44,741 nt of DNA from a virus. This document shows, in pieces, positions 2,689 through 36,667 of this stretch. Below the pieces are notes generated by a model. That model did not search any database, was not told where the DNA came from, and saw only the letters and a program-made list of their open reading frames with translations. The DNA lies in the IMG/VR virus record IMGVR_UViG_3300044839_000066, positions 1 to 44,741 of that record; one strand, 5' to 3'. Numbering within the stretch: the first letter of the stretch is position 1; each line of letters opens with the position of its first letter. The translations under genes and the position numbers were made by a program.

Positions 2689-4020
2689 CTAAGCACGGCG
2701 GGCCTTTTTCGGTTTCGGCTCAGCGCCGCGTGTCAGCTTTGTGCCCATATCGTCTAGCTCATTGACCAGTTGCCGGCGGTATTCCGGGGCATCGTGCGAA
2801 TACCCCATCACCGACCGGATATCCAGCCACCCGCCTTGTTCCATGGCGGACCGCGGGTCGCGCCGCAGCCACTTCTGCGCCAGCGCGTGACGGAACCAGT
2901 GTTGCGTCACCTTGCCGATCAGCGCCGCGTCAGCGCCCGCCTGGTCGCGTGCTTCGGCCGCGGCCTTGCGTTGCCCCGCTTTCGTCAGGCGCACATGGGT
3001 GGCCTTGCCAACGGCTAGGATTGCCGCTGCGGCCCGTCGCTTCGCGGCGTTGAAACCCGTCTTGTTCTGCCCGCCGCCCGCCTTGCCGTTGTCGGTGTAG
3101 GGCTGGCGCCGGAAGGTCAGGAACAGCGGGCCTTCGCGATCGTGAAGCTTGCCGCGCCACTTCAGATATTCCCTCAGAACGCCAACGGCGGTGGGATCGA
3201 GCGCGGCGTGAACGTCCTCGCCGTTCTTCGTCGCCGGGAAGGTGATCTGTTCCCGGCCCTTCGCCAATATCAGGTCGCACACCCGCGCTGCGTACAGGAT
3301 CGACGACACCCGCGCGCCTGTGGACCGTTCGACCGCGAGCTGCGCGCGTATGCTGATATGACAAGCGTCGAAAAGCCGCTGCACCATATCCGGCCGGAGA
3401 TCCCCGACACGTCGCCGGACGCGGCGGTTCGGATTGCGCGCGTCCTGGTCGCGCTCAAAGGATGGCACCGCGACAAGCCCGTGGTGGCGCTTGGCGAAGT
3501 TCAGGAAGGCCAGCAGCCCGCCGATGAACCGTTCCCGGGTCGCGGCCTTGTTCCCGGTCATGCGGCCGGTGATCGCCGTTCCGTCCGGCTTCGTGCCACC
3601 GTCAATCCATTGCTTCCATTCGTCGGTGCGGACTTCGTTCAGCCGGCGTCCGCCGAACTTTTTGACGGCCTCTTTAACGATGTTGACTGAGGCCGCGCCA
3701 AGCGGCCGTTTCCGCGGCGTCGAAAGATAACCGGCCGCTGCTATCGCAACTGGATCACCACGCCCGGCCTTGCCGGTGATCTTCGCCTTGATATCTTCGA
3801 CGAAGGATTCGAGCGCGCCTTCGGCTTCGGTTTGAGCGGTGGCCGCGATGGCCAAGTCAAGACTTTTTCGGATGCGGACTGAACGGCCTGCGACCCGTAG
3901 GGAACCAACAGCGTGCCAGAAGCCGTCGCGCTCTTGGAGCCTAACGCCGCGAGAACGCCGCCCGGGGCGCTTTCCCTTTCGATCGCCGCTTCGAGATTTT
4001 GGAATGCCGCTGTCGACCAT
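2689..4020 (-). CDS. int: Phage tyrosine recombinase (integrase)
   Basis: This 443-residue site-specific recombinase is expected to integrate and excise the prophage at the tRNA-Thr site next to it. Residues about 24–85 form an N-terminal arm-binding-like region, with a core-binding domain at about 90–190. The catalytic domain shows Arg237 in TGARVS, Lys265 in ATKNGED, His374-x-x-Arg377 in HWFRH, Trp398 and the probable nucleophile Tyr407 in MGYSHD, with the usual nine-residue W-to-Y spacing. It is the last gene of the leftward operon. Its first 93 codons overlap the 3' part of the preceding excisionase-like gene in another frame. Confidence 0.95.
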   Translation of the reverse strand: MVDSGIPKSRSGDRKGKRPGRRSRGVRLQERDGFWHAVGSLRVAGRSVRIRKSLDLAIAATAQTEAEGALESFVEDIKAKITGKAGRGDPVAIAAAGYLSTPRKRPLGAASVNIVKEAVKKFGGRRLNEVRTDEWKQWIDGGTKPDGTAITGRMTGNKAATRERFIGGLLAFLNFAKRHHGLVAVPSFERDQDARNPNRRVRRRVGDLRPDMVQRLFDACHISIRAQLAVERSTGARVSSILYAARVCDLILAKGREQITFPATKNGEDVHAALDPTAVGVLREYLKWRGKLHDREGPLFLTFRRQPYTDNGKAGGGQNKTGFNAAKRRAAAAILAVGKATHVRLTKAGQRKAAAEARDQAGADAALIGKVTQHWFRHALAQKWLRRDPRSAMEQGGWLDIRSVMGYSHDAPEYRRQLVNELDDMGTKLTRGAEPKPKKARRA

Positions 4021-9795: not shown

Positions 9796-10049
9796 GCGAC
9801 GACTTCGACTGGTCGCACAACAACGAGGATGTGGTCATGCCAGAACAGCGATCGACGGCGGTGTACGCCAATCAATTCGGCTCGGCAGTAATCCGGCAGG
9901 AAAAGAATTGGCCGGACGAAACCGATGACCCGTATTTGATAATCGACCATGCTCACCTGCCGGACGTGATCGCGAAGCTGCAAGCCATCGCCGATCAGCC
10001 CCGCCAGCGTGACCCGAGCGCGGCGGTCAAGTTCGCTGGCGAAAAATGA
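9792..10049 (+). CDS. Unknown early protein
   Basis: An 85-residue acidic protein coupled to the replication gene by an ATGA overlap at 9792. It contains DDPYLIIDHAHLPDVIAKLQ, a short alpha/beta-like segment. I recognise no family. It is followed by another overlap with the ParB-like gene (10046). Confidence 0.6.
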   Translation: MSDDFDWSHNNEDVVMPEQRSTAVYANQFGSAVIRQEKNWPDETDDPYLIIDHAHLPDVIAKLQAIADQPRQRDPSAAVKFAGEK

Positions 10050-11152
10050 CGCATCGCCCCATCGCCCCGATTGCGCTGAACGGCTGCGAACCCGGTGGCA
10101 CGCCGCGCGCCTTGCCGATCTTTGAATGGGTCGATCCCGGCACGTTGCTCGTTGACGAGGGTTATCAGCGCGACAGCAGCGAGCGCAGCCTAAAGCTTGT
10201 CCGCAAGATCATCAGCGGCTGGGATTGGGCCAAGTTCAAGGCGCCGGTCGGCGTCCTCGTCGACGAGGGGATCGAGTTGATCGACGGTCAGCATACCGCG
10301 ATTGCGGCATGCTCGCATCCCGACATTCCGCAGATCCCCGTGATGATAATAGAAGCGGCCGAGCGCACCGACCGCGCGGGCGCGTTTATCAGCCACAATC
10401 GTGATCGGATTGCCGTTACCGCTACGCAATTGCATGTCGCCGCGCTGGCGGCGAGGCAAGCTGATGCCCTTGCGGTCGAACGGGCCTGCGAAGCGGCAGG
10501 TGTAACGGTGCTGCGCACTTCGCCTGGAGCCGGGCGTTATCCGGCGGCCTCGACGGTAGCAGTGACCGCCATCGGCGCCCTCATCCGCGGTCGCGGGGAG
10601 GAAGCGGCCGCCCGTGTCTTGACGCTCTTAGCGCGCGCCGAGCTGGCACCAATAACGCAAGTCCAGATCAAGGCGACAGACCTGTTGTTGCACGATCCGG
10701 AATACAAAGACCTGTCGGCGGACAAACTACCGGCCATCATCGTCGCCATGGGACCGAAGGCCGAAGCCGAAGCGAAGATGTTCGTGGCGGCGCATCCGTC
10801 GATCGCGCTCTGGAAGGCGGTCGCGATCGCGTGGTTCAAGAATCGCCGTGTGCGGGCAGCATCCGTCCAGGCGGCTGGCGGCGTCACTGCGAATATTCGC
10901 AGTGACGGTGTCTATCTGGAAGAACTTACAGATGTTGAGCAGCGCAAAATTTCATCTGCGAATGACATTTCAGCCTCCCATCCAAGCAGCCGTGAGACAG
11001 GCAAGCGCGACGCTCGCCCGAAACTGAGCGGCTGGATTCCAGGTCCGGTCCTTCGCGTATGTCCCGGTTGCGATGAACGATACGTCGGCGACGTGAAGTC
11101 CAAGTCCTGCGCGGATTGCGCATACGGTTGCCGGGAGGCGAAGTCGGCATGA
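10046..11152 (+). CDS. ParB-like (DUF6551-type) protein with C-terminal zinc ribbon
   Basis: A 368-residue protein. Residues about 25–95 resemble the ParB/sulfiredoxin fold (FEWVDPGTLLVDEGYQRDSS; GIELIDGQHTAIAA, with the conserved D/E-G-Q-H motif). The middle is helical. The C-terminus has four cysteines in two CxxC pairs (CPGCDERY, CADCAY), a likely zinc ribbon for nucleic-acid binding. Such proteins are common in alphaproteobacterial phages, and their activity (CTP-dependent DNA binding or nuclease) is not established here. It is coupled to genes on both sides by ATGA overlaps. Confidence 0.7.
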   Translation: MTHRPIAPIALNGCEPGGTPRALPIFEWVDPGTLLVDEGYQRDSSERSLKLVRKIISGWDWAKFKAPVGVLVDEGIELIDGQHTAIAACSHPDIPQIPVMIIEAAERTDRAGAFISHNRDRIAVTATQLHVAALAARQADALAVERACEAAGVTVLRTSPGAGRYPAASTVAVTAIGALIRGRGEEAAARVLTLLARAELAPITQVQIKATDLLLHDPEYKDLSADKLPAIIVAMGPKAEAEAKMFVAAHPSIALWKAVAIAWFKNRRVRAASVQAAGGVTANIRSDGVYLEELTDVEQRKISSANDISASHPSSRETGKRDARPKLSGWIPGPVLRVCPGCDERYVGDVKSKSCADCAYGCREAKSA

Positions 11153-12609
11153 GCAACGCCGCCCCGCTAATCCAAGGCAACGCCGTCATCACGCCGGGGC
11201 GGGGCGGCGTGAACCGTCCCGAGCGGCATCTGATCGGAAGAAGATGCCCGTGTTGCGGACAACCGCTTGGCATGGTCGATGATCTGCAATGGAATATGTC
11301 GGCGCGCTCCCTAGTTGGGCGCGGGCTCGCTGTAACGCTATCGCCGCTCAAGGCAAGAATTTTTGATGTGCTCTGGCGCAATTGGCGAACCGGCAGGCTC
11401 ATCACGCGTGATCAGATGATGGACCTGGTCTACGCCAACGATCCGAACGGTGGGCCGGAATCGGAAAATATTATTTCGGTGCAAGTAGGTCTCACTCGCG
11501 AAGCAATCGCGCCGTTCGGTCTCACCATAAAAGGACGCATTGGCTATTCGCTCACGACATTGGAAGGCGTCGTCGCGGGGGGGGGGTGTGGTATGACGCA
11601 GGCGGCCATAACACTTTTGCACGGCGACGGCGCTGAAGTTCTGCGTTCGCTGGTACCGTGCTCTGTCGATATGGTGTACAGCGATCCACCTTTCGGCAAC
11701 GAGCAAATTTGGAAAGGTAAGGCCGGATCGTTTTCGGACAAATGGAATCCGTCCGCGAAGTCCGAACTCGGCTGGCAGAGCCTGCGAAATTTCAGCGCCA
11801 GCGGTCACGCGCTACTGCTCGCGGCTACCTCGACCAAGGCCGCGTCACGAGCTTATCTTGGTGTGATGGCCGGACTCTTGATCGAGGTGCGGCGCGTTCT
11901 AAAATTGACGGGGACGCTGTGGCTGCATTTTGACGACACGATGGGCGCCTATCTTCGGTTGATTGGTGACATCGTTTTCGGACCGGAAAACAGCGTCGGA
12001 ACGCTGGTCTGGAAGCGCACGGAAGGCGGCAAGAGCAGCGCGATCAAGTTTGGCCGCGTTCATGACACGATAGCCGTTTGGGGCCGCTCCAGGGCGTCCC
12101 GCTTCAAGTTATGGCGCTGCGGACGCGCAGTCGGCGACCCCATCAGTCGCGACCCCGATATCCACTTCAACGACTTTGCGGACGCTGCGCCACTCGGCTC
12201 GTTTTCGTCAAAGGAGCGCGTCGGTTATCCGACTCAAAAACCGGTGGCGCTGTTAGAGGAATTGATCACCGCCGCTACTGTGGCAGGTGATCTTGTTGTC
12301 GATCCAACTTGCGGATCAGGCACAACGTTGGTAGCGGCAGAAAAACTTGGGCGGCGCGCCATCGGCATTGATGCTTCGGCCGATGCCATCAAGGTATCAT
12401 CGTTGCGCCTTACCGCTGCGCGACCGCTGCAGAGCGATCTATTCTCGATCAGTAGCATCGCGAAGCCGCGCCTGTCGAAAGAATTAGCGGCGGCTCTAGG
12501 TGGAGCGCGGATCGTTAACCGAGCGCCCGAGCCTTTTACCAGCGGTAAAATTGCAGCAATTTCCACTGTGAAACAGGACGCGCGGCGCCAGCCATCAGGG
12601 CTGGTCTGA
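11149..12609 (+). CDS. Winged-helix domain fused to beta-class DNA methyltransferase
   Basis: A 486-residue fusion. Residues 30–42 hold a CPCCG zinc-type motif. Residues 58–136 are an OmpR/trans_reg_C-like winged helix (SPLKARIFDVLWRNWRTGRL; KGRIGYSL). From Met149 a complete DNA methyltransferase follows: DPPF at 179–182, YPTQKP at 360–365, and the AdoMet motif DPTCGSGTT at 385–393. That motif order fits beta-class N6-adenine or N4-cytosine enzymes. The two parts are joined in frame only by ten G residues at 11577–11586. One G less would end the first part at a TGA overlapping the ATG of the second. Probable role: modification of phage DNA, possibly regulated. Confidence 0.85.
   Translation: MSNAAPLIQGNAVITPGRGGVNRPERHLIGRRCPCCGQPLGMVDDLQWNMSARSLVGRGLAVTLSPLKARIFDVLWRNWRTGRLITRDQMMDLVYANDPNGGPESENIISVQVGLTREAIAPFGLTIKGRIGYSLTTLEGVVAGGGCGMTQAAITLLHGDGAEVLRSLVPCSVDMVYSDPPFGNEQIWKGKAGSFSDKWNPSAKSELGWQSLRNFSASGHALLLAATSTKAASRAYLGVMAGLLIEVRRVLKLTGTLWLHFDDTMGAYLRLIGDIVFGPENSVGTLVWKRTEGGKSSAIKFGRVHDTIAVWGRSRASRFKLWRCGRAVGDPISRDPDIHFNDFADAAPLGSFSSKERVGYPTQKPVALLEELITAATVAGDLVVDPTCGSGTTLVAAEKLGRRAIGIDASADAIKVSSLRLTAARPLQSDLFSISSIAKPRLSKELAAALGGARIVNRAPEPFTSGKIAAISTVKQDARRQPSGLV
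11577..11586 (+). repeat. Poly-G tract (10 G), candidate phase-variable junction
   Basis: Ten consecutive G residues read GCG-GGG-GGG-GGG-TGT-GGT-ATG. With nine G the frame becomes GGT-GTG-GTA-TGA, ending the winged-helix protein with an ATGA overlap on the methyltransferase ATG (11593). With eleven G it ends about 16 codons later, after reading through the ATG in another frame. The tract is also 6 bp before the ATG, a Shine–Dalgarno position. Confidence 0.7.
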
Positions 12610-12848
12610 TGGGGACCGCGCGCCAAGCACATTGGGCGAAGGGCTCCAAGGCTCGCTGCGGCGAGGGTCAATGCCGCGCCAGCACGACGATCAGCGTTGC
12701 GTTGTTTGAGCGTATCAGAACGAGCGCCAAAGGGCGCTACGCCAGCGTTTCCGAGGAAATCGCGAAAGCGCTGGCGAAGCAATATCCTGCGGAAGCATCA
12801 CCACAAGACGACGGGGCAACGAACAACAATGCCGAAAACCCAAATTGA
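12609..12848 (+). CDS. Small ribbon-helix-helix-like protein
   Basis: A 79-residue protein. Residues 25–60 (STTISVALFERIRTSAKGRY, then SVSEEIAKALAKQYP) match the beta-helix-helix pattern of Arc/CopG-type DNA-binding proteins. A Cys pair (RCGEGQC) lies at 16–22. Its ATG shares a base with the methyltransferase stop (TGATG). It may regulate neighbouring genes. Confidence 0.55.
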   Translation: MGTARQAHWAKGSKARCGEGQCRASTTISVALFERIRTSAKGRYASVSEEIAKALAKQYPAEASPQDDGATNNNAENPN

Positions 12849-28133: not shown

Positions 28134-29381
28134 ATGACCGCAACACCCTATCAATCACAGGCCAACGCGCTGATGGCGTACAAGGTGCAGTCCGGTCAGG
28201 GCGTGCAATCGAGCGGCGGCGGTGCCACGCAGCTCAGGCTGGCGGACGGTAGCGCCGGCATCAAGATGAACAAGCCCGTCACCGAAAGCGGTGAGGTGCG
28301 TTCAGACGGGATGCGCGGGCGCGGGCGCCACGGTATCCAGAAAACGACCGGTGCCTGGAATCACCAGGCGTCGATCGGCTCTTGCGAGCCGATCATTGAA
28401 GCCATCATGCGCGATACCTACTCTGCCACCCTTGTCATCACCGAAGCGACCTCGGGCGGTCCGACCAGCGTCACGATCGGCGCGAACAGCATCATCGGCA
28501 ACAGCGGTTCATGGATCGTCGCAGGGCTCCGGGTCGGCGACGTGGTCCGCCCAACGAACCTGACGGACGCACCGAACAACAGCAAGAACGTCCGCCTCTC
28601 GGGTGTGTCGGCGCTCACGCTGACCACCGTCGAAACCATGACGCCGAACGCCACCCCGGACACGTCTTTCACCATCACGCGGCCGAAAAAACTGATCCAG
28701 TATTCTGCCGGCGTCTTGGTGCCGCGCTGGTTCACTGCTGAAGATTACGAAGGCGATATCGACGGGACGGAAGTCGCGACGGACTTCGTGTGGACCAACG
28801 CCAAGGTTGCCATGGCGCCGAATGGGATTTTAATGCTCGATCCCGGTGGCATCGGCACCGGTCAATTCCAGGCGTTGACCGGTGCCAGCGCGCCGCTGTT
28901 CACGTCGCCGACGCTTAACACCGCCGTGCCGCTGTCGGTGATCGACGCCACGCTTCGGCTCGGCACAACCGATCTCGTTGAACTGAGCGCGTTCGATCTC
29001 ACAATGGACATCGGCGGCATGGCGCCGGAAACGTTCGGCTCGGCTGCGCAGAGATATTCGCCGACCGTTTTCACGGGCCAGATGGGCATCAACATCAGCC
29101 TGACGGCGCTCCGGAAGGATCTGGCGTATGTCGCGAACTACATCGCGGAAGATGTTCTGACGCTGCACTGCCTTGCTGTCGAGAACACGGCAGAGCCGAA
29201 GAACTTCCTCGCATTCTCACTGACGAATTTCACGTTCGGCAGTGTGGACAAGTCCGCGCTTAACCGCGCCGCTGGTCCGCGGACGCAGACTATCCAGATT
29301 CCTGTCGGCCTCGTCGGTAAGGATGAGGCGGGCGGCGCGTATGACGGCACCATGATCAAGTGGCAGAGCACTGGCGCCTGA
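28134..29381 (+). CDS. Major tail tube protein
   Basis: A 415-residue protein with a long N-terminal arm, a domain containing GGPTSVTIGANSIIGNSGSW and beta-strand patterns (AYKVQSGQGVQSS; LVPRWFTAEDYEGD; FDLTMDIGGMAPETFG), and a C-terminal beta domain ending SLTNFTFGS and IPVGLVGKDEAGG. It fits long-form tail tube subunits of siphophages. It lies between the tail terminator and tail-assembly chaperone genes. Tail tube rings stack around the tape measure. Confidence 0.75.
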   Translation: MTATPYQSQANALMAYKVQSGQGVQSSGGGATQLRLADGSAGIKMNKPVTESGEVRSDGMRGRGRHGIQKTTGAWNHQASIGSCEPIIEAIMRDTYSATLVITEATSGGPTSVTIGANSIIGNSGSWIVAGLRVGDVVRPTNLTDAPNNSKNVRLSGVSALTLTTVETMTPNATPDTSFTITRPKKLIQYSAGVLVPRWFTAEDYEGDIDGTEVATDFVWTNAKVAMAPNGILMLDPGGIGTGQFQALTGASAPLFTSPTLNTAVPLSVIDATLRLGTTDLVELSAFDLTMDIGGMAPETFGSAAQRYSPTVFTGQMGINISLTALRKDLAYVANYIAEDVLTLHCLAVENTAEPKNFLAFSLTNFTFGSVDKSALNRAAGPRTQTIQIPVGLVGKDEAGGAYDGTMIKWQSTGA

Positions 29382-29385
29382 TAAG

Positions 29386-29415
29386 TTTTCTCTCTCTCTG
29401 CCTCTCCCCCCCCTC
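29386..29415 (+). repeat. Polypyrimidine tract with TC repeats and C8
   Basis: Directly after the tail tube stop the plus strand is almost pure pyrimidine: (TC)n dinucleotides, then a run of eight C (29406–29413). It lies about 25 bp before the next start. It may be a length-variable tract or a transcript feature. Confidence 0.5.
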
Positions 29416-31066: not shown

Positions 31067-31144
31067 CGCTCTTCCTCCGCAGCAAACCGGGGAAGCATGC
31101 CGATATTTTCGGCGATGGCAAGTACCGTTAGAGGTTTTCGCTAC

Positions 31145-34100
31145 ATGCCCGCTCCCGTCGTCACTCAATTAATTATCGACGCAAGCGGTGCTCGGCAGGG
31201 CGTTGCCGAGTTCGAAGCGTCGATGGCCAAGGCGAAAGCTGCGGCGGTTGATGGCGGCGCTGCGACCGCGCAGTCATTCGAGTCCGCGCAAAGGCGTTGG
31301 GTTCAATCGCTTGGCGCGACTGACCCGGTAATCCGCGCTCAGATCAGAATGAAGGACGATCTCGCCAAGCAAGAGGCGATCAACACCCGGGCCGTCCAGC
31401 TCGGAATTGCGACGAGCGATGCTGCAAAATCGCAGATGGACGCCGTTCGGCAAAAGCACGAAGGGATGATTCAAACCATCCGGGAACAGACCGGGCAGCT
31501 TGCGGGTAATGAAAAGGCGTGGTTGGGGCTGAAGAACGCAACGTCCGGTGTGTCGGGACAGCTTATCGCACTGAGTGCAGGTGCCGGTCCGGTTGGCGTT
31601 TTCTTATCCGCATTGGGGCCTTGGGGAATTGCCGCCGCGGTCGGGATCGGCGCGATATCCGCAGCCATCAACCACATGATCTCGGAAGCCAATCGGATGG
31701 GCGAGGGCGCTATCGCCATGCGCACCTTTTCTGAGACTACCGGCCTTTCGATCACCCAACTGAAAACGCTGGGCAGGGCAGGCGCGGAGTTTGGAATTGG
31801 CACCGACATAATTTCTGCCAGCATTGAAAAGTTCACCGTCAACATGGAAGAGGCCCGAAAGGGCCAAGGGAAGCTATACGACGAGGTACGCAAAATTGAT
31901 GGCGGCCTTGCCGACGAACTCGCTGCTGCGACAACTACCGCTAAGGCGTGGGACGTGCTCGCCAAGGCGAGGGCGGCAGCGTCTGATCAATCAAAAAACG
32001 CGCTGTCGAAAGCTGCTTTCAACAAAGGAGGATTGGAAACAGGACTTGTTCTGGACGTAACGGCGGAGGCCGGCGGACTTGATGTGCTCGTTGCGAAACA
32101 GCAAAAACTCAACGGGATGACGGATGAGCAGATAAAAAAATGGGGGCTGACGAAAGTCCAGATCGACGAAACGCAGAAGCGAACCGCCAACATGATGGCG
32201 GCGGTGTACAGTCAAGAGGTATTGGACAGGCAATTGCAAGCCGCTCAATTGGAAGAGCGGATAACGCGCGCGTTGGTGGATGCAAACGCCCAGCGCCAGA
32301 AGCAGCGCAGCTATCTCGATTTGTTTTCGGCTGGTGTTGACACCAACCCGAAGACTCCGATGGAGACGGCTAAAGAAAATCTGAAGGCTGGCCTTTCTGC
32401 AGGGCAGAAGCTGGATACGTCCGGGTATGACGACCTGGCAAAGAAATTATGGGCTGTTGTTGACGCTGAAAAGGCGGAAGCGGATGCGCGGAAGCTGCAA
32501 GCGGATGCCGCAACTCGCAGCGCCAATAAGGACAGGGAAAGAATTGGATATCTCGGTTCTGCTGCGACCATTGAAGAGCGCCGCTTACTGAGGATGAAGG
32601 AGTTGGACGCGGCGGTAAAGAGTAATTTCGCTACTCAAACGACTTATGATCGGGCGGTGCAGGCCCTCGATCTCGATACCTTGGCCGCGAAGCAGAGTGC
32701 ATACGTCGCTGCTCTTGGCGCGTCAGCACCAATAGCGCAGATAGTCCTCGACAAGGAACTTCAGCTTCAAAAGCAGCGACTCCAAGACCCTCGTATCACA
32801 AAGGACATTATCGAGTCTCAAAAGCTGCTGATCGCATCGCAGCAACTCGGCACTTACCAAATTCAATCACAGATTGATGTCGAGAAGACGAAGCAAGACA
32901 CCATCGTCATGTCGGCTGGTGCTGCGGCGGCATATACGGCTGAGCAGACCAGGTTGAACAAGGCCCGCCAGGATGGGCAAATCCTGGCGCCGAAGGAATT
33001 GAAAGACCTTCGCGACAAGTCGGTGGCGCTGGGCGTAGCGACGCAGGCTTCCGCGCAAGCCGCTGCACAAAGCAAGGCGGACTTCGATCTTCAAACGATG
33101 TTCCTTTCGGATACCGAAAAGTCCATCGCTCAGGTTCAATTCCAGCTTCGCGGTAATGCTTGGCAGTCGTTCATGAACGACGGGCTTTCGGCATCGCTGC
33201 GATTGGTCGGCTCGTTCAAGGATCTTCAATCATACACCACGGGCTTTACTACCGATCTAGCGCATGGCCTGACGCAAGGTAAATCGTTGGTGGATTCACT
33301 TTCCGCCGCCGCCGTAAATTTGGGCCAGAAGCTGATCGACGCTGGCCTAAACAGCGCCATCAACATCGGTCTGAATGCGATTACGGGCGCGAGTGGTGCG
33401 GGCGGGGCGCTAGGCGGCGCGGCCGGTGGTGCAGCACTCACGGCAGGCGCTGCGACCGCCGGTGCCACGCTCATTGCCTCAGCAACGGCTGCTGCTGGTA
33501 TTCTTGCCGGTGCCGGGGTTGGCGCCGGTACGAGCGTGAGCCTCGGGGCGGCCGATGCTTCGCTACTGCTGGACTTCAGCGCGGCAGACGCCGCCGCGAC
33601 GCTGGGCATCGGTGGAGCTACGGCGGGGACCGCGCTTGATCTCTCAGCGGCCGCGGCCGGCGTGTCGCTGTCGGCTGGCGGTGCGGCGGCTGGTCTAGCG
33701 ATATGGGGACCGATCGCCGCCATCGCCGCAATTCTTATCGGCATCGGCCTTATGTCTGCCGGTGGCGAAGACAAGGTTAAAAAAGCGCAGGAAGAATGGA
33801 AAAAGGCCGGACCCGCGTTCCAGAAGTTTCTAACCGAAATGAGTGGCGGCGTTCAAGGTAACTTGTCGCAGCAAATTCAGGACGCGTCAGCCCGCGAAGC
33901 TGATTTTGAGGACCGGGCATGGAGGGCGAGAGACGTAGCAGCGATCAACGCGGCGCGCTCGGGATTGCAGCGCTTCTCCGACAACCAGAAGCGCCTGTTC
34001 CTATCGACAGTTTCCGCGACCGTTGAAGGGCTCAACGACGGGCTCGGCCTCGACAGCCCCTTTATGAAAGCTGTCGGGAACATCAAGACCGCCCTGAACT

Positions 34101-36667
34101 CTCAGCTCGCATTCATTGATGACGCGAATACTGCGCTGGGCGACCAATCGTATGACGGCGTTACACTCGAAAAGGCGCGCTCGGCTTCACAGGCTTATAT
34201 GGTCTCGCTGCTACAGCAACCCCCAGCGCTGTCAGCCGTGCAAACCGGACTAGCCCAAATCCACGGTACCGCCAACGCGCTGCAGGGCGCGCTGATGCAG
34301 CTAGGTCTATCGTCAACGGATGCGGCAAGAGCCATCAGCAACGGCGTCAGCAAGGCCATCGCAAATCTGAAAAAACAATTCGAGGAAGGGCTGACCGAAC
34401 GGCTCAATACCGCAAACGGGAAATCATACCTGAACGACGCCACGAAGTTGCTCGCTCAGCATCAACAGGATTTGACCGATGCAGCGTCGCTAGGAGTCGA
34501 CCCGGCGCGGGTTGCGACGCTCTTCCGAGCCGAGGCGCAGAAAATTATAAACGATGCGGGCCTGGTTGGCGGTGCTTTCACCGACTTCATCACTCAATTC
34601 CCGCAGCTCGCGGATATCGTCACGCAGGCGACCAAGGATATCGCCGGGGGAATATCTGATTTCAAAGCCGGGCTAACCTCTCGACTGAACATCGCGCACG
34701 GCTCGTCATTCCTGAACGATGCAGCATCACTTCTGAAGCAGCACCAGCAGGACTTGGCTGACGCCGCGAGGTTCGGCAACGATCCCGCTTTGATGACGCA
34801 AATTGCGACGCTGTTCGCGGCCGAAGCGCAGAAGATCGTTAACGGCGCGGGCTTGGTCGGTGACGCTTTCAGTTCCTTTAAAACGCAATTCCCCGATCTC
34901 GCGGGTGTTGTGGTCGAGGCGACCGATTCCATAGCGGCTTCGCAGAAGCAGCTACAGGACGGCATCAATTCGACTGCAAAAACTCTCGTAGATTATGTCG
35001 CCAGCATTACCACCGGACCGAACTCGACATCATCGCCGCAGGATCGGTTCAACGCCGCGCAAGCGGTTTACAGTGCAAAGCTGGTGCTGGCGCAGGGCGG
35101 CAACATCGACGCGCAGAACACCATTTCTCAGGATGCGGAGAACTATCGGCAAGCCGCGCGCGACCGATTCGGTTCGGCGATGGGCTATCAGAGCGTGTTG
35201 CAACAGATCAAGGCGCAGTTGCTCGCGCTTCCCGCCGTTCAGCAAACAACCGACCCCGTTGTTCAGGCGATGCGGGACGTTCTGCTGGCCATCCAGGCGA
35301 CCACAACTGCGGTGACGGGGACCACGTCGGCGATCACGGCGATGCAGGGCGCGCTGATCGGCGGGCTGGCCTCCAACAGCCCGGCGGCGATAGCAGGCGC
35401 TTTCCTGCAGGGTGGCATCGGCGTCGGCGGGCTTACCGCAGCGCAGTTTTCGTCGATCTTTGGCATCGGCCTGACCTTCGACCAGTTCAAGAACGGCTTC
35501 CCGCCCGGGCTCGCCAGCGACGCCACCTTGCACGATCTCTTTGACGTGATCGACGCCAACAAAGACGGCATTATCACGCAACTCGAATTGTTGCAGGCGG
35601 CATTGAAGCCCGCCATCGATTCCGGGAACGCTTCGGCGATTGCTTCTGCGCTGTCGAACTACTTCAACGCGATCGACACGAACACCAGTCAGACGATCGA
35701 TTTGAGTGAGATGCAAACCGCGTTGGCGGGCATGGCCAGCAATTCGGCGCTGGTGAGCATGTTCACCCGCCTTGATGCCGACAACTCTGGATCGATCAGC
35801 AGGCTTGAGCTGATCAAGGCTGCGTCGCAATCCACCACTAACACGGTTGCGACCGTTTCCGATACGATATCGACGGTTTCGGATCAAATCCACAGCACCA
35901 TCGTCCTGCAGGATGCGGCAAATTCACTGACGACGACGGCGAACAATATCGCCAACGCACAATGGGTTTTGCTTGACGCGATCAGGGCATTGCAGACGAC
36001 CGCAAATAGCCAATTTAATTTGCTCAATGCAGCGCTTAACCCCACAATCAATCCCGTCACCTTATTTTTCACGAAGACCGGCGCGGGGACGAGTGATCCA
36101 CAAAGTGAGCACACCGCAGTTAATGAGCAGGCGCTTACCGTTTTAGAAAAAATCAACATCAACACATGGGCGACTGCTGGTAACACACGCGCTCTTATTG
36201 TTGGTGCCGCCAACGTCTCAGCGCGTGACGGACTTTTCGCTGCTGGTGGATGGGTCACCGGCGGCACCCCTGGCGTGGACAGCGTTCGCATTCTTGCGCA
36301 GCAAAAAGAGTTCATCGTCAATCCATACGCTACGAGTGCCCTCACCAGAGATTACGGCCCCGGGGTGATGGACCTGATCAACAGCGGCAGGTTGCCGTCG
36401 AACGATAATTTCAGGGCGAGCAATGTAGTGGACTTCAGCGCTGCGTCACGGTTCCCCGCGACAGCGCCAGTCGATAATGGGCAGCACTTCGTCACTCTGG
36501 CGCAAACGCTTGCCAGGACAATGGTTGAAGTTTCTCTCACCGAAATGGCCTCTGCCAAAGAAGAGAGTGCCGCGCTCCGGTTGCAGGTCGCCGCTCTGAC
36601 TGCTGAGCTACGCAGCAAGCCCGCGCCGGAACGGCCGAACGCCAGACGTACCGGAACGAATAGATGA
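31145..36667 (+). CDS. Tape measure protein with EF-hand motifs
   Basis: A 1840-residue tape measure from ATG 31145 (AGAGG ribosome-binding site). Residues about 1–120 contain the typical start VVTQLIIDASGARQGVAEFE, and a hydrophobic segment lies near 145–195 and another near 740–875 (Ala/Gly-rich, then WGPIAAIAAILIGIGLMSAG). Residues 1082–1272 are a tandem duplication. Three EF-hand-like loops start at about 1470, 1511 and 1544. The C-terminus has the usual FAAGGWVTGGTPGVDSVRI and VMDLINSGRLPS segments. It sets tail length and may eject with DNA. By the usual ruler relation the length implies a long tail. Confidence 0.95.
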   Translation: MPAPVVTQLIIDASGARQGVAEFEASMAKAKAAAVDGGAATAQSFESAQRRWVQSLGATDPVIRAQIRMKDDLAKQEAINTRAVQLGIATSDAAKSQMDAVRQKHEGMIQTIREQTGQLAGNEKAWLGLKNATSGVSGQLIALSAGAGPVGVFLSALGPWGIAAAVGIGAISAAINHMISEANRMGEGAIAMRTFSETTGLSITQLKTLGRAGAEFGIGTDIISASIEKFTVNMEEARKGQGKLYDEVRKIDGGLADELAAATTTAKAWDVLAKARAAASDQSKNALSKAAFNKGGLETGLVLDVTAEAGGLDVLVAKQQKLNGMTDEQIKKWGLTKVQIDETQKRTANMMAAVYSQEVLDRQLQAAQLEERITRALVDANAQRQKQRSYLDLFSAGVDTNPKTPMETAKENLKAGLSAGQKLDTSGYDDLAKKLWAVVDAEKAEADARKLQADAATRSANKDRERIGYLGSAATIEERRLLRMKELDAAVKSNFATQTTYDRAVQALDLDTLAAKQSAYVAALGASAPIAQIVLDKELQLQKQRLQDPRITKDIIESQKLLIASQQLGTYQIQSQIDVEKTKQDTIVMSAGAAAAYTAEQTRLNKARQDGQILAPKELKDLRDKSVALGVATQASAQAAAQSKADFDLQTMFLSDTEKSIAQVQFQLRGNAWQSFMNDGLSASLRLVGSFKDLQSYTTGFTTDLAHGLTQGKSLVDSLSAAAVNLGQKLIDAGLNSAINIGLNAITGASGAGGALGGAAGGAALTAGAATAGATLIASATAAAGILAGAGVGAGTSVSLGAADASLLLDFSAADAAATLGIGGATAGTALDLSAAAAGVSLSAGGAAAGLAIWGPIAAIAAILIGIGLMSAGGEDKVKKAQEEWKKAGPAFQKFLTEMSGGVQGNLSQQIQDASAREADFEDRAWRARDVAAINAARSGLQRFSDNQKRLFLSTVSATVEGLNDGLGLDSPFMKAVGNIKTALNSQLAFIDDANTALGDQSYDGVTLEKARSASQAYMVSLLQQPPALSAVQTGLAQIHGTANALQGALMQLGLSSTDAARAISNGVSKAIANLKKQFEEGLTERLNTANGKSYLNDATKLLAQHQQDLTDAASLGVDPARVATLFRAEAQKIINDAGLVGGAFTDFITQFPQLADIVTQATKDIAGGISDFKAGLTSRLNIAHGSSFLNDAASLLKQHQQDLADAARFGNDPALMTQIATLFAAEAQKIVNGAGLVGDAFSSFKTQFPDLAGVVVEATDSIAASQKQLQDGINSTAKTLVDYVASITTGPNSTSSPQDRFNAAQAVYSAKLVLAQGGNIDAQNTISQDAENYRQAARDRFGSAMGYQSVLQQIKAQLLALPAVQQTTDPVVQAMRDVLLAIQATTTAVTGTTSAITAMQGALIGGLASNSPAAIAGAFLQGGIGVGGLTAAQFSSIFGIGLTFDQFKNGFPPGLASDATLHDLFDVIDANKDGIITQLELLQAALKPAIDSGNASAIASALSNYFNAIDTNTSQTIDLSEMQTALAGMASNSALVSMFTRLDADNSGSISRLELIKAASQSTTNTVATVSDTISTVSDQIHSTIVLQDAANSLTTTANNIANAQWVLLDAIRALQTTANSQFNLLNAALNPTINPVTLFFTKTGAGTSDPQSEHTAVNEQALTVLEKININTWATAGNTRALIVGAANVSARDGLFAAGGWVTGGTPGVDSVRILAQQKEFIVNPYATSALTRDYGPGVMDLINSGRLPSNDNFRASNVVDFSAASRFPATAPVDNGQHFVTLAQTLARTMVEVSLTEMASAKEESAALRLQVAALTAELRSKPAPERPNARRTGTNR
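34388..34960 (+). repeat. Tandem duplication in the tape measure
   Basis: Two copies, of 94 and about 97 codons, begin GLTERLNTANGKSYLNDA (34388) and GLTSRLNIAHGSSFLNDA (34670). Both contain LL-QHQQDL-DAA and AEAQKI-N-AGLVG-AF. A small insertion separates them in length. Codon-level divergence indicates an old event rather than assembly error. Confidence 0.85.

Follow-up and report, generated by a model that had tools for sequence, protein, structure and literature searches.

The window (the whole stretch of DNA analysed here, 44,741 bases) is an IMG/VR virus record that resembles a temperate tailed phage, and it carries a temperate-phage gene set comprising a tyrosine integrase (2689-4020), an antirepressor, an HTH repressor, terminase, portal, capsid and tape measure. 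Rfam and tRNA scans of the window returned no matches. The locus considered here lies behind a ParB-like gene, a conserved neighbour that flags a variable slot, and consists of a winged-helix (wHTH) gene and a DNA methyltransferase (MTase) gene that meet at a run of ten guanines (G10; Table 1). The TGA of the ParB-like gene overlaps the ATG of the wHTH gene as ATGA.

Table 1. Features of the wHTH-MTase locus, in window coordinates
Feature	Position	Strand	Evidence or remark
ParB-like gene	10046..11152	+	phrog_1033 E 7e-13; relatives L005-L009, L154-L164
wHTH gene, OmpR/PhoB-type, single N-terminal CPCC knuckle	11149..11576	+	AlphaFold, Foldseek, 40 viral-contig relatives
G10 tract	11577..11586	+	third base of codon 143 plus GGG x3
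Shine-Dalgarno-like MTase leader (tract plus TGTGGT)	11577..11592	+	predicted anti-SD pairing -14.1 kcal/mol
beta-class N6/N4 DNA MTase, 338 aa from own ATG	11593..12609	+	PF01555 E 2.9e-30, phrog_67 E 2.2e-43
Small ORF after MTase	12609..12848	+	start overlaps MTase stop as TGATG

An earlier sequence-only reading of this DNA had placed the G10 tract between a complete winged-helix domain and a complete MTase and had described both as one protein of 486 residues. Our analysis bears this out, with the tract exactly at the positions given above and a single frame of 486 codons running from the ATG at 11149 to the TGA at 12609. It is also the case, as had been proposed, that nine G separate the two genes; the first ORF is then 148 aa long and closes with a TGA that forms an ATGA with the MTase start at 11593. 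A table of frames by tract length gave the same separate genes and ATGA overlap for 6 or 12 G, a fused frame for 7, 10 or 13 G (fusing lengths being 1 modulo 3), and for 8 or 11 G a first ORF of 161 or 162 aa with its stop 44 nt within the MTase gene. Two of the features that mark homopolymeric phase-variable loci, a mononucleotide tract of about eight or more bases in or beside a coding region and a one-unit change of length that alters the encoded product, are present at G10. The statement that almost every neighbouring gene pair shares the ATGA coupling was too broad: it applies to the three junctions just upstream (9792, 10046 and 11149) but not to nearly all pairs of the window, and the very next junction already differs.

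In the AlphaFold model, residues 61-137 of the wHTH protein have a pLDDT of about 90 and display the N-terminal strands, three helices and C-terminal wing hairpin of the OmpR/PhoB type, and the Foldseek matches in the PDB were the DNA-binding domains of SaeR, CovR and PhoB. The Pfam model Trans_reg_C remained below its cut-off for the window protein and was matched by 11 of the 22 aligned members (best E 2.8e-8). In the model, the final strand of the wing finishes at residue 137, six codons ahead of the codon in which the tract starts. The zinc-type motif described earlier is reduced to one CPCC knuckle at residues 33-36, as a second cysteine pair is absent from the protein. The fused 486-aa protein was modelled poorly, with a mean pLDDT of 51. 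In the MTase, the catalytic DPPF precedes the SAM motif DPTCGSGTT, which together with the PF01555 match places it in the beta class of N6/N4 enzymes; its PADLOC matches were to generic methyltransferase models.

The relatives of both proteins point to two genes rather than one. About 48 relatives of the wHTH protein (40 in viral contigs, the RR1-A phage gene and seven loci behind ParB-like genes) all stand alone; most of them end no further than about 15 residues past the wing, and in many the stop overlaps the next start. None of the 40 viral-contig relatives is fused to an MTase or has a G tract at its stop, and in the ParB-like loci L157, L158 and L160-L164 the wHTH genes, single or paired, likewise stand alone, with stops that overlap the next gene or lie just ahead of it. 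Similarly, none of the 81 MTase relatives has an in-frame wHTH, the longest open N-terminal extension being 62 aa against 148 in the window, and G runs of 7 or more are absent from the 80 nt upstream of all of them. The closest MTase (90%, L002) lies directly behind a ParB-like gene, with neither wHTH nor tract. Queries with the MTase and the wHTH against bacterial genome contigs gave no matches.

The most informative comparison is the record IMGVR_UViG_3300020202_000079 (L020/L160), which has homologous proteins in the same gene order, namely ParB-like, wHTH-a, wHTH-b and an MTase at 59%. It differs from the window in that all of these are separate, overlapping genes and the wHTH genes are two in tandem; its wHTH-b/MTase junction is ATGA, and the first codons of its MTase are out of frame. 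A G8 tract, the only such tract in this 64-kb record, lies only at the wHTH-a/wHTH-b overlap (L020:2571-2578), where 7 or 10 G would fuse both wHTH genes. Assessed post hoc, the position of this tract, independent of the window tract, is a notable coincidence. The stand-alone wHTH relatives, the wHTH-free MTase relatives and the L020 order with its ATGA give good support to the earlier proposal that two separate, coupled genes were probably ancestral. Absence of the tract from relatives, which would speak against the proposed switch, is found in part, as no other wHTH/MTase junction carries one; such absence is not decisive, since many alleles of Campylobacter jejuni cj0031 lack their G tract as well (PMC4889913).

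The slot itself is a cargo site whose edges are conserved. A relative whose ParB-like protein matches at 82% (L005) has a different small gene in the slot, and the tail of that gene resembles the C-terminal tail of the window MTase (SGKIAAISTVKQD), with a nearly identical common core SGKIAA-STVKQD. Across the window, L002, L005, L007, L008 and L154-L166, the cargo behind the ParB-like gene comprises wHTH plus MTase, MTase alone, small cysteine-containing proteins, or one to two tandem wHTH genes.

We also looked at how unusual the tract is. G10 is the longest homopolymer of the window, in which no other G/C run reaches 9 bases, and under order-2 and order-3 Markov models the expected number of G runs of at least 10 per window is about 0.005. 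The earlier reading is supported in so far as an unusually long tract stands where its length sets fused against separate products. A survey of 30 related virus records (~1.07 Mb) gave five G/C tracts of 8 or more; one has 11 bases and another lies at a contig end. The frequency of runs of 8-11 in this phage group is roughly one per 200 kb, and they are not confined to genes. G10 therefore exceeds the expectation from composition, yet the related phages show a heavy tail of long G/C runs.

The tract together with TGTGGT is also an excellent predicted Shine-Dalgarno match for the inner ATG. With an anti-SD sequence assumed to be of the alphaproteobacterial type, the predicted pairing is the strongest of the junctions tested and its energy stays constant between 9 and 13 G, as the 3' edge of the tract is fixed relative to the ATG; predicted strength is independent of length from about 8 G upward. 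While the placement proposed earlier was correct, the further idea that tract length tunes translation through this site is rejected, pairing energy being flat from G9 to G13. Among runs of 8 or more, 4 of 12 have an ATG 4-12 nt downstream, compared with 1 of 12 and 0 of 12 in the controls, and runs of 4-7 G have no enrichment at this position, which gives weak support to long G runs being SD sites in general.

Considering all of this, we favour as rather probable the view that separate, coupled phage genes meet at a slippage-prone, SD-like G run, and that the length recorded here is a derived or miscounted one that fuses them. The OmpR/PhoB-type wHTH and beta-class MTase genes would be interchangeable, translationally coupled cargo behind the ParB-like gene, and the G run, sitting in an unconstrained 3' tail of the wHTH gene, would double as the SD leader of the MTase. 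Slippage could lengthen such a run; multiples of three (6, 9 or 12 G) would then keep the genes apart with a 4-nt overlap, and the recorded ten would open one frame, as a mutant state either real in the phage or produced by a one-base assembly miscount. Both activities are predicted to survive in every length class, since the wHTH fold is finished by the time the tract begins and the MTase could initiate at its own ATG. A change of length would mainly alter the C-terminus of the regulator and the proportion made as a fusion ('C-terminal' variation) and would not switch methylation on or off. The epigenetic ON/OFF switch put forward in the sequence-only reading is accordingly judged unlikely on the anatomy of the locus, as the MTase keeps both its ATG and the same predicted SD at every length. 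Three observations weigh against this favoured view of coupled genes: the enrichment of long G runs at SD positions is weak, a 9-G sequence from the window's own lineage was not found in the viral contigs searched, and the G8 at another wHTH junction in L020 hints that such tracts may be more than passive.

It is unlikely, in our estimate, that the locus is genuinely phase-variable, with slippage in phage or host replication toggling a fused wHTH-MTase against two proteins and thereby changing methylation targeting or expression. Its rarity as the longest homopolymer of the window, its toggling position, the independent G8 of L020 (at a junction where 7 G would put both wHTH genes in one frame) and the precedents of Helicobacter canadensis HCAN_0660/0661 (PMC2823697) and C. 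jejuni cj0031 (PMC4889913) all speak for it. Against it, a DNA-pattern search of viral contigs, a set that may lack near-identical records, found no near-identical copy with another tract length, the other wHTH/MTase junctions are without a tract, long G/C runs in relatives are also non-coding (e.g. the 11-base run in G001), and both domains are predicted to be intact at every length. The more specific proposal of a contingency locus, where the toggling changes the site or amount of phage methylation and the L020 G8 is a second instance in the wHTH family, is distinctly doubtful.

To an equally doubtful degree, the tenth G may have been miscounted in sequencing or assembly, or may stem from slippage in a minority of molecules, and the phage itself would then have 9 G and two ordinary overlapping genes. 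Short-read consensus across ten bases is usually right, which argues against a miscount. However, 9 G would recreate the ATGA overlap found at the three upstream junctions and in L020, no relative examined shares the fused architecture, and homopolymers are known sites of sequencing artefacts (PMC8808543). A stable natural fusion, in which a regulator-methyltransferase binds its own operator like M.SsoII, is very improbable; the 486-aa frame is open and only a short glycine-rich linker stands between the wHTH fold and the MTase, but the linker is encoded by a homopolymer, no relative is fused, and M.SsoII is a C5 MTase and so of another class. Programmed slippage of RNA polymerase or the ribosome, yielding both forms from a single allele, is permitted in principle by ten identical bases and is scarcely credible, as a +1 ribosomal shift would be needed from 10 G to reach the ATGA stop and a conserved signal is absent in relatives.

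Among known systems, one of similar layout is HCAN_0660/HCAN_0661 of H. canadensis, where the length of a poly-G tract late in one gene decides whether two adjacent coding sequences are separate or merged, a behaviour termed 'C-terminal phase variation' (PMC2823697). In that case the two genes are hypothetical and sequence reads revealed the tract to vary in length (PMC2823697), whereas here a wHTH and a DNA MTase are concerned, in a phage, with one recorded length. In C. jejuni, cj0031 (cj0031/cj0032) is a Type IIG restriction-modification enzyme with a G9/G10 tract that joins or splits frames in a DNA-modification gene (PMC4889913). There a single enzyme contains the tract and loses its activity upon frameshift (PMC4889913); the window tract, by contrast, stands between complete domains and ahead of an MTase with its own start. 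M.SsoII offers a likeness of another kind, an N-terminal region that regulates transcription joined to a DNA MTase (PMC3978073). It belongs to the C5-cytosine class, whereas the window protein combines PF01555 with an OmpR-type wHTH and has no fused counterpart among the relatives found; the window protein is thus not assigned to the bifunctional MTases of the M.SsoII type.

Natural variation of the tract, if it occurs, would make this a phage case in which slippage determines whether a DNA-binding regulator and a DNA MTase are made as one protein or two. Otherwise the locus serves as a caution that a single G at an overlapping junction makes two ordinary phage genes resemble a new fused enzyme, and such fusions in metagenomic contigs should be compared against relatives.

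Other homopolymers were noted in the same material. The second longest in the window is a C8 at 29406-29413, just behind an ORF ending at 29381. The record with the closest MTase relative, G001, holds an 11-base G tract on the phage sense strand (G001:19963-19973), which lies beside a tRNA-like sequence and is probably non-coding. A related prophage record with ParB-like and wHTH genes has an inverted homopolymer pair C9G10 (L161:688-706) and a C10 (L161:2784-2793). Apart from these, the tape-measure-like protein of the window (1856 aa, 31097-36667) has EF-hand calcium-binding motifs at about residues 1478-1573, which is unusual in a phage tail protein.
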